Assembly (NCBI GenBank): GCA_019235885.1 | Contig: JAFAKB010000047.1 | Coordinates: forward strand, 1 to 52,822 | DNA: 52,822 nucleotides | From: Candidatus Eremiobacterota bacterium | GTDB taxonomy: Bacteria; Vulcanimicrobiota; Vulcanimicrobiia; Vulcanimicrobiales; Vulcanimicrobiaceae | Reading direction: 5' to 3' | In this document: one piece after another, positions 1 to 44,173 of the stretch | How positions within the stretch are numbered: position 1 is the stretch's first letter | How the letters are laid out: each line of letters opens with the position of its first letter | Notes under the pieces: model-generated | Told to the model about the DNA's origin: nothing | Database searches by the model: none | What the model saw: the letters and a program-made list of their open reading frames with translations, nothing else | Made by a program: the position numbers and the translations under genes

Positions 1-568
1 CGTACCACCCGCCCTTGAAGCGCGGATCGAGCCGAATCGCTTCGCGCGCGACGCCGTTCTGCGCGATCCCTTGCGCGCGCAGGTGATCGAACGTCCCGAC
101 GACGATCGCGTGATTGACCAGCTTGTCGTGCGCGCGCGCCCACTGCAGCGTCTGCTGGCCGCCGAGCGAGCCGCTGATGACGACCGCGAACCGCTCGATC
201 CCGACTGCTTTCAACGCACGCCGCTGCGCCTCGACCATATCCGCGACGGTGACGACGGGAAACCGCGGCCCCCACCGCTGCCCGTCCGACGCGAGCGACG
301 ACGGCCCGGTCGAGCCGTAGCACCCGCCGAGCGCGTTCACCCCGACGACGCACCACTCGGCAACATCGAACAGCGCGCCGGTGCCGGCGATCCCGCCCCA
401 CCACTCGAGGACCCGCGACGACCCGCTGAGCGCATGCGGCACGAACACGACGTTCGACCCGTCGGGCAGCGGCTCGCGCCCGTAGCGCGTCACCTGCTGC
501 ACGACGTTCGGAATCACCTCGCCGGAAACGAGCTCGAGCGCGCCGATCTCGACGTCCTGCTCGATCAC
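1..568 (-). CDS. metX: Homoserine O-acetyltransferase (MetX), 5' part; runs off the window
   Basis: Acetylates homoserine with acetyl-CoA, giving the O-acetylhomoserine that MetY then sulfhydrylates; cytoplasmic. About 189 N-terminal residues are visible. They include the family stretch [15 protein letters not shown] and the alpha/beta-hydrolase nucleophile elbow SGSLGGQQ, whose central Ser is the expected acyl acceptor. The start is the GTG at 568-566, which shares four bases (GTGA) with the metY stop, so translation is probably coupled. The C-terminal catalytic Asp and His lie outside the window. A homoserine O-succinyltransferase of the same fold is possible, but pairing with metY favours acetyl transfer. 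Confidence 0.9.
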
Positions 569-1866
569 GCCGCCTCGAGCGCCTGGCGCAGATCGGCGAT
601 GATGTCGTCCACGCTCTCGATACCAACCGACAACCGGACCGCATCGTCACTGACGCCGCTGGCGATCTGATCGGCCGGCGTGAGCTGCTGGTGCGTCGTC
701 GAGGCCGGATGGATCACCAGCGACTTCGCATCGCCGACGTTCGCCAGTAGCGAGAACAGCCGCAGCTTGTCGATCACCGCGCGCGCCATTTCGGCGCCGC
801 CCTTCACGCCGAAGGTGAGGATCGCGCTCGCGCCCTTGGGCAGATACTTCTGCGCCTTCGCGTACGCCGGATCGCCCGGCAGTCCCGGATACCGCATCCA
901 GAGCACCTTCGGGTGCTCGCGCAGAAACTCCGCGACGCGCAGCGCGTTGCTGCTGTGCCGCTCGACCCGCAGCCCGAGCGTCTCCAGCCCTTGCAGCAGC
1001 AGGAACGCGTTGAACGGCGAGAGCGCCGCGCCGACGTCGCGCAGCAGCTGCACGCGCGCCTTGATGATGTACGCCAGCGGCCCGACCGCCTCGGTGTACA
1101 CGACCCCGTGATACGACGGATCGGGCTCGACGAAGTCCGGAAACCGCCCGGACGCCTTCCAGTCGAACTTCCCGGCGTCGACGATCGCGCCGCCGATCGT
1201 CGTCCCGTGCCCGCCGATGAACTTCGTCGCCGAGTGGACGACGACGTCGGCGCCCCACTCGATCGGCCGCAGCAGATACGGCGTGGGCAGCGTGTTGTCG
1301 ACGATCAGCGGCACCCCGGCCTCGTGCGCCACCGTCGCGAACGCTTCGACGTCGAGCACGTCGAGCTTCGGGTTCCCCAGCGTCTCGGCGAAGACGGCCT
1401 TGGTGTTCGGCCGGATCGCCGCCGCGACCGCCGCCGGATCGGACGGATCGACCAGCGTCACCTCGATTCCGAACCGCGGCAGCGTGTGCACGAACGCGTT
1501 GTACGTCCCGCCGTAGAGCGAGGCCGAGCTGACGACGTGGTCGCCGGCCCGCGCCAGGTTCAGCAGCGAGTACACGGTCGCGGCCTGGCCGCTGGCGAGC
1601 GCGAGCGCCCCGACCCCGCCTTCGAGCGCGGCCAGCCGCTGCTCGAACACGTCGGTGGTCGGGTTCATGATGCGGGTGTAGATGTTGCCGAACTCTTGTA
1701 GCGCGAAGAGCCGCGCCGCGTGCGAGGTGTCGTCGAAGTTGTACGAGGTCGTCTGGTAGATCGGAACGGCGCGCGACTTGGTCGCGGGATCGCCGCCGTG
1801 CCCGCCGTGCAAGGCGACGGTCTCGAAGCCCGGTTGTGCGGCTACAGGGTCCAGGGTGCTGCTCAT
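565..1866 (-). CDS. metY: O-acetylhomoserine sulfhydrylase (MetY)
   Basis: PLP-dependent Cys/Met-metabolism enzyme of 433 residues, the usual MetY length. It converts O-acetylhomoserine plus sulfide to homocysteine in direct sulfhydrylation. Visible hallmarks are the N-terminal ETVALHGG, a PLP-phosphate region around ASGQAA, the [13 protein letters not shown] stretch, and the PLP-lysine motif [11 protein letters not shown]. The C-terminus has the conserved [10 protein letters not shown] substrate-binding segment. Start is the ATG at 1866, with GGAGA a few bases upstream. It is first in the metY-metX operon, and expression is probably set by the leader attenuator at 1943-2079. Confidence 0.95.
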
Positions 1867-1942: not shown

Positions 1943-1983
1943 CGAAAAACAAAACGGCCCCCGCCGGTGTAGGCGAGGGCCGT
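1943..1983 (-). terminator. Rho-independent terminator/attenuator in the metYX leader
   Basis: Read on the minus strand, a 12-bp GC-rich stem (arms 1983-1972 and 1965-1954, one mismatch) closes a 6-nt loop and is followed by TTTTGTTTTT. It lies between the leader peptide and metY with no complete gene ending just upstream, so it is placed to cut transcription before metY rather than to end another unit. Its 5' arm (1979-1973) is complementary to 2036-2030 inside the leader peptide gene, and its loop region (1972-1966) is complementary to 2027-2021. Either pairing would exclude the terminator. The mechanism is inferred; hairpin, T-run and complementarity are seen. Confidence 0.8.
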
Positions 1984-2004
1984 TGTAGTTTCGTCGAACG
2001 CCGA

Positions 2005-2079
2005 TCAGGGCGACGACGATCTACACCGTCCCTCGCGGGCGGCACACATCGCCATCATCGCCATACAGCAGGCGTCCAT
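2005..2079 (-). CDS. Cys/Met-rich leader peptide of the metYX attenuator
   Basis: A 24-codon ORF that begins Met-Asp-Ala and continues Cys-Cys-Met-Ala-Met-Met-Ala-Met-Cys; in total 4 Cys and 5 Met among 24 residues. Such a run matches the end products of the metY-metX pathway and is the signature of ribosome-mediated attenuation. The ATG at 2079 either uses the AAGGTG 6 nt upstream as a ribosome site or is leaderless, because the predicted transcript start coincides with the ATG. Codons 15-17 contain a GCGAGGG that can pair with the terminator's 5' arm, so a ribosome stalled on the Cys/Met codons would leave it free to form an antiterminator. Function is inferred from this layout. Confidence 0.75.
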   Translation of the reverse strand: MDACCMAMMAMCAAREGRCRSSSP

Positions 2080-2086
2080 GTGGGGC

Positions 2087-2115
2087 ACCTTAGCAGACCC
2101 GGGCCGGGGCGTCAA
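2087..2115 (-). promoter_or_regulatory. Promoter of the metYX leader
   Basis: TTGACG (2115-2110), a 17-bp spacer and TAAGGT (2092-2087) resemble a housekeeping promoter with a TANNNT-type -10. The -10 ends 7 nt before the leader-peptide ATG, so transcription would start at or next to that ATG, giving a leaderless peptide mRNA. The AAGG within the -10 could instead act as a ribosome site if transcription starts further upstream. Confidence 0.5.
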
Positions 2116-44086: not shown

Positions 44087-44173
44087 TGGTGCGCGAGACT
44101 GGATTTGAACCAGCACGGGATCGCTCCCGCTAACCCCTCAAGCTAGTGCGTCTACCAATTCCGCCACTCGCGC
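44087..44173 (-). tRNA. tRNA-Leu (anticodon GAG), CCA encoded
   Basis: Read on the minus strand: acceptor 5' arm GCGCGAG (44173 inward) pairs with CTCGCGC at the 3' end, followed by discriminator A and encoded CCA (44089-44087). The anticodon stem CTAGC/GTTAG closes loop TTGAGGG, giving anticodon GAG for CUC/CUU Leu codons. A long variable arm (class II) and the TTCAAAT T-loop fit tRNA-Leu. Confidence 0.97.

Follow-up and report, generated by a model that had tools for sequence, protein, structure and literature searches.

The window, a stretch of 52,822 nucleotides from a Candidatus Eremiobacterota bacterium, carried a metY-metX gene pair preceded by what was very likely (probability of about 0.87) a ribosome-mediated transcription attenuator controlling the synthesis of methionine, in which a short leader ORF would sense Met-tRNA, with Cys-tRNA as a co-input. 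This reading was built from sequence and comparison among genomes. The gene order on the minus strand was promoter, 24-codon leader ORF, intrinsic terminator, metY and metX. The start of metX overlapped the stop of metY, and metX itself was cut by the edge of the window and contig. The features were as follows.

2087-2115, minus strand: promoter with -35 box TTGACG (2115-2110), 17-nt spacer and -10 box TAAGGT (2092-2087); pattern match at G000:C47:2077-2115
2005-2079, minus strand: leader peptide gene of 24 codons plus TGA, MDACCMAMMAMCAAREGRCRSSSP; Met cluster ending in Met-Cys kept in 10 sister genomes and in other genera
2044-2070, minus strand: putative regulatory Met/Cys codons 4-12 (CCMAMMAMC), from the peptide alignment; antiterminator lost with the A site near codon 12
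2012-2056, minus strand: candidate protector hairpin (1:2), from minimum free energy structures
1973-2036, minus strand: antiterminator hairpin of 64 nt, -37.7 kcal/mol, z -5.2, with none of 200 shuffles as stable
Antiterminator pairs, minus strand: 2036-2030/1979-1973, 2028-2027/1982-1981, 2025-2021/1988-1984, 2019-2014/1996-1991 and 2012-2009/2002-1999
1944-1984, minus strand: intrinsic terminator with stem 1984-1972/1965-1953, loop 1971-1966 and U-rich tail 1952-1944; covaries in 11 genomes and occurs at each of the 35 Eremiobacterota loci tabulated
565-1866, minus strand: metY, O-acetylhomoserine sulfhydrylase (homocysteine synthase); NCBIfam NF006096 at 733 bits, above cut-off, and TIGR01326
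2-568, minus strand: metX, homoserine O-acetyltransferase, partial; NCBIfam NF001209, E 4e-54

Across the whole window, the sole Rfam match at gathering level was a tRNA gene (44090-44173, minus strand).

The leader ORF and its methionine and cysteine codons

The earlier note had described a leader of 24 codons with four Cys and five Met, including the run Cys-Cys-Met-Ala-Met-Met-Ala-Met-Cys. The count was right with the start codon included, as were the coordinates given, and the run was located at codons 4-12. Its conserved part ran through the Met codons and closed with Met11-Cys12 (2049-2044), and the Cys-Cys pair at codons 4-5 appeared in the peptide alignment in the window only. The proposed mixed code was therefore retained for the conserved Met cluster ending in Met-Cys but not for Cys-Cys, which was species-specific. 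The cluster as a whole was Met-rich and centrally placed in the leader. The leaders had a Met plus Cys fraction of 0.26 in frame, and the two other frames gave 0.12 and 0.03. A Met/Cys cluster was conserved in the predicted leader ORFs upstream of met genes at 35 or more loci of Eremiobacterota and 15 or more of Acidobacteriaceae. No NCBIfam model matched the leader peptides, and a scan of the whole G000 genome with the promoter pattern did not find a second Met/Cys leader.

The end of the ORF was variable. In some species the leader stop was the TAG inside a conserved GTGTAG, and in others, including the window, a one-base difference took the frame past this TAG. Either way, the terminating ribosome would cover part of the antiterminator.

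Conservation among Eremiobacterota

Conservation of the leader ORF and of the terminator pairing, on which the earlier note had made its proposal depend, was found within the genus, across genera and in a second phylum. For the genus, we compared the DNA upstream of the metY orthologues of the sister genomes, which were 82-91% identical. Each of the 11 genus genomes searched had the leader design, as did 14 or more further Eremiobacterota genera. Ten genus members, the window among them, had the leader, promoter and terminator ahead of metY, and every member with sequence upstream of metY had the same layout (e.g., MNGRCMAIMAMCATREGRCRSSSP, MERRRMAMIAMCAAREGRCRLSSR, MDRRPAMMMMCCSPRGTV, MNRRSLAMMMCCCSPRGTV and MIAHSREMMSMCAASRGPV). 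The eleventh genome, G003, carried the leader MSRRLVAMIMAMCAVPRGPV, with promoter and terminator, directly before metX (L210, G003:C425, minus strand).

At the family level, a Met/Cys leader with a terminator preceded metY or hom-metY in 13 genera and hom-metX in a 14th. Besides the genus of the window, the genera with the leader before metY or hom-metY were g53, g6, g20, g7, g11, g24, g50, g52, g18, g48, g43 and g46, and cores in other genera included MMCPMCCMQM and MFGFMCC. In genus g44 (L207, L208, L209 and L211), leaders such as MSRFASSIMMFSMCGMRMHVAGSS stood before a hom-metX operon in genomes lacking the close metY subfamily. Among named relatives, the closest one found was a Candidatus Eremiobacterota MAG (L097). 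The metY genes of genera g4, g8, g23, g45, g51, g10 and others were without such a leader, as were the distant metY paralogues L057-L060 (54-59% identical).

Several matches of the peptide profile were rejected as noise: the weak ones in G010:C83, G005:C16, G116:C132 and G090 had no leader arrangement, and the one in G318 sat in a larger frame.

Promoter position and predicted leaderless start

In the window, the leader ORF was probably leaderless, as predicted from the position of the promoter, because the -10 box ended only 7 nt before the ATG. The promoter layout was shared by 34 of 35 related loci, with the 7-nt gap in 28 of the 34 and a gap of 6-9 nt in all of them, a statistic that was partly conditioned since the first-pass detection of loci used a promoter pattern permitting gaps of 4-10 nt. 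A promoter-blind peptide-profile search regained most of the same loci together with new ones. Moreover, the TTGAC-TANNNT-ATG spacing had 16 matches in the G000 genome versus 0 for a reversed control pattern, suggesting that leaderless genes were common in this organism. A class-mate, G048 (L091), had the leader MNLTSMSAMMCMCETCMVSHAEARALSK with a Shine-Dalgarno-like AAAGGA and no leaderless start.

Terminator and antiterminator

The intrinsic terminator that the earlier note had placed between the leader ORF and metY was present at 1984-1953, and terminators were located 93-120 nt past the leader ATG in all 35 Eremiobacterota loci tabulated. The loop sequence TACACC was found in this genome only, with TCTC, TCACC, TCCC, ACC and so on elsewhere.

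Two antiterminator pairings had been put forward. The first, between GCGAGGG (2036-2030) and CCCTCGC (1979-1973) of the terminator 5' arm, was complementary and conserved. The second, between 2027-2021 and the terminator loop (1972-1966), was rejected: the strings GGTGTAG and CTACACC were indeed complementary, but the loop varied among relatives and the pairing was not conserved. It was probably coincidental, since the loop TACACC was particular to this genome. The conserved partner of TGTAG (2025-2021) was CTACA or CTGCA at 1988-1984, at and just upstream of the first base of the terminator. The antiterminator thus consisted of GCGAGGG paired with the terminator 5' arm, CG and TGTAG paired with CTACA.CG, and TCGTCG-type bases paired with CGACGA, with all of this pairing upstream of the terminator loop.

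Folding of the region, which the earlier note had suggested, placed the whole leader as more stable than its dinucleotide shuffles (z -3.6, 0 of 200). The outer helix of the antiterminator was 99.4% paired in the 11 genomes of the genus. It was nearly invariant there, and the sole compensatory change was a double one in G008 (CG to UA), which the terminator 3' arm of that genome fitted too. Since the antiterminator varied too little within the genus, the arms were swapped between genera instead, and own arms fitted their segments better than swapped ones (permutation p<5e-5). The duplex between segment 2 and the arm reached -39.5 kcal/mol in the window versus -20.2 kcal/mol for shuffles, and over 14 genera it beat dinucleotide shuffles of segment 2 with a Fisher p of 1.5e-14; genus g6 was an exception, having no significant duplex. 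When the stall was placed right on the core Cys, the shuffle test was not significant in the genus of the window. Repeating the test with one fixed stall for all loci (leading edge at nt 40) and segment 2 alone shuffled gave a significant result.

The hairpin at 2056-2012 was a candidate protector, as modelled in the window, and probably not a general one. Its 5' arm overlapped the Met/Cys codons and its 3' arm held the 5' strand of the antiterminator.

Ribosome position and the proposed mechanism

For the folding scans, the RNA 3' of the ribosome leading edge was folded at every position, with an assumed footprint of 13 nt past the start of the A-site codon. In these computations the antiterminator probability was high for stalls within the Met/Cys cluster and dropped right after it. 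In the window the last cluster codon was 12 and the antiterminator was lost at codon 12.3. The corresponding values of loss and last cluster codon were 18.3 and 18 in L011, 18.7 and 18 in L042 and L077, and 16.3 and 16 in L043 and L048. A few loci (L031, L019 and L012) lost the antiterminator several codons after the end of the cluster. Together, the leader ORF, the terminator, the competing antiterminator and the stall geometry made up computationally the classical attenuation layout to which the earlier note had compared this locus.

We propose that transcription would start at or adjoining the AUG of the leaderless ORF, so that the ribosome would trail the RNA polymerase closely. When charged Met-tRNA (and Cys-tRNA) is available, the ribosome would pass the cluster and mask the 5' side of the antiterminator hairpin (2036-2014), leaving the terminator (1984-1953) to form before metY-metX. 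Cys-tRNA was included as an input because the cluster ended in Cys. Under a shortage of charged Met-tRNA (or Cys-tRNA), the ribosome would stall within the cluster, and the hairpin 2036-1973 would sequester the terminator 5' arm, permitting read-through into metY-metX.

Some observations counted against this proposal, among them the near-invariance of the antiterminator helix within the genus, with its one compensatory change, and the genera whose metY had no such leader. The behavior of the RNA without a ribosome was another. At many loci the ribosome-free RNA also preferred the antiterminator as long as the 3' arm of the terminator had yet to be made, with a probability of 0.75 in the window and of 0.01 to 0.92 among loci. 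Untranslated leaders should therefore read through, unlike in E. coli trp. Equilibrium folds of the full-length RNA favored the terminator at most loci, so the antitermination would have to be kinetic.

Similar leaders in other phyla

Scanning of metY loci in other phyla yielded similar leaders in Granulicella, in another Acidobacteriaceae MAG, and in single Lentisphaerae and Anaerolineales MAGs. Cores such as TMAMCMCM occurred at 15 or more of 24 Acidobacteriaceae metY loci, mostly together with terminators. The antiterminator test combined over 16 loci outside Eremiobacterota gave a Fisher p of 2e-16, which was optimistic because the loci were related. The Anaerolineales locus (L248, the same locus as in L135) had MKFTSFMMMCMCNGGAKATVWPCTSM at 227-307, followed by a strong terminator-like hairpin, ahead of a cysK-like gene that itself preceded metY. 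A phylum-wide peptide-profile search of Acidobacteriota gave few matches, in 4 of 247 genomes, and one of these was noise; either the trait was mostly confined to Acidobacteriaceae or the short profile was too weak.

At another locus, L256 (from the order of G124, minus strand), the leader MFFSTCCCMSMCA was very short and was accompanied by a terminator and by promoter boxes close to consensus (TTGACA, TATAAT). Its antiterminator was not significant by itself.

Which signal the leader reads

The strongest competitor kept the same attenuator and assigned it methionine sensing only, the cysteines being hitchhikers of RNA pairing or chance. We gave it a substantial minority chance. It was favored by the downstream genes metY, metX and hom, all belonging to methionine synthesis, and by the confinement of the joint Cys4/Cys5 to the window. 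Stall geometry pointed the same way in the genus of the window: a stall exactly at Cys12 gave a partial antiterminator (probability of about 0.5-0.8), so that the Met codons, those at 6-11 in particular, were better-placed sensors and Cys12 was borderline. Thus, by these models, Cys may be less important than Met in this genus. However, the core Met-Cys was near-invariant, with 25 distinct leaders sharing the core Cys in 90% of cases or more and both Cys codons in use (TGT 47, TGC 39), and Met and Cys alternated in other genera and in Acidobacteriaceae (MCPMCCMQM, MAMCMCM), which argued for a role of cysteine. It was also conceivable, at somewhat short of even odds, that the alternating cluster is a dual-input sensor of total sulfur amino acid supply, and that the mixed code represents a widespread, previously undescribed control of direct-sulfhydrylation operons (metY, metX and hom) in at least Eremiobacterota and Acidobacteriota.

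Two further explanations dispensed with codon supply. The leader peptide might be a nascent-chain sensor, that is, an arrest peptide to which Met, SAM or some other thiol metabolite binds. Programmed arrest would agree with a Met-Cys core that is short, conserved and at a constant distance from the antiterminator. We considered this quite improbable, because the motif was repetitive and degenerate (MAIMAMC, MMMCCC, MFGFMCC, MSTCC, MAMCMCM) with no fixed arrest motif, and a stall anywhere in the cluster yielded the same fold. Still less probable was a functional metal- or redox-binding microprotein. The MxCxxC pattern on which it would rely occurred in some genera (MMCPMC in g50 and MTCSMC in g43) but was absent from the genus of the window, g20, g24 and most Acidobacteriaceae; moreover, conservation outside the core was poor, and the strict coupling to a terminator and antiterminator would be left unexplained. 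Finally, although GC-rich intergenic DNA can hold short ORFs and hairpins, a chance ORF before a terminator that merely ends an upstream unit was practically dismissed, because the ORF, its promoter spacing and both the terminator and the antiterminator were retained from genus to genus and recurred in other phyla.

Relation to known systems and significance

The main known examples of RNA-level methionine control are SAM riboswitches and T-boxes. The proposed attenuator resembled SAM riboswitches and Met T-boxes in controlling met genes by a terminator and an antiterminator. However, the leader in the window matched no SAM riboswitch or T-box at either gathering or relaxed thresholds, and no Rfam family at gathering score. 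In the Eremiobacterota family, SAM-I riboswitches were found in 0 of 61 genomes and T-boxes in 0 of 41, with positive controls included.

The trp, his and leu leaders of Proteobacteria likewise combine an ORF carrying regulatory codons with an antiterminator competing against an intrinsic terminator, the position of the ribosome being decisive. The system in the window differed from them in its mixed Met and Cys codons, its predicted leaderless start, the preference of ribosome-free RNA for the antiterminator at many loci, and a 1:2 protector that was a candidate and probably not general.

The nearest described systems are found in mycobacteria and Streptomyces. Leaderless poly-Cys uORFs of mycobacteria, predicted in PMC1262725 and PMC4633059, have been described as translational attenuation (Canestrari et al. 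2020, as cited in PMC13236596 and PMC9094748). As far as these citing papers portray them, they share with the window a leaderless short ORF, sulfur amino acid codons and sulfur amino acid operons, but they use Cys only, in a run near the stop codon, and no intrinsic terminator was found in their description, whereas the leader in the window was Met-rich and had a terminator and an antiterminator. Streptomyces lividans metL, MSTTSDRTPATEATTTPGARCMCRRMCAF, is leaderless, lies upstream of metNIQ and ends in RCMCRRMCAF; on the basis of one genome it has been read as Met-dependent, and its terminator is unclear (PMC8079986). It shares with the window a leaderless leader peptide of mixed Met and Cys before a methionine gene set, and differs in having Met/Cys at the C-terminus, no clear terminator, and a transporter rather than biosynthesis downstream. 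The statement of the earlier note that no mixed Cys and Met case had been described was therefore slightly too strong, since metL mixes both, although metL was regarded as Met-dependent and without a clear terminator. In the open-access literature we found nothing closer to a methionine/cysteine leader attenuator before metY.

These results provided comparative evidence for a leader-peptide transcription attenuator controlling methionine in phyla with almost no studied regulation. The proposed attenuator had a code joining both sulfur amino acids and a predicted leaderless translation. Moreover, in genomes of Eremiobacterota and Acidobacteriaceae the leader can be used to mark a regulon of metY, metX and hom. 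If the dual-input reading is true, then one leader would report the total supply of sulfur amino acids rather than that of one amino acid.
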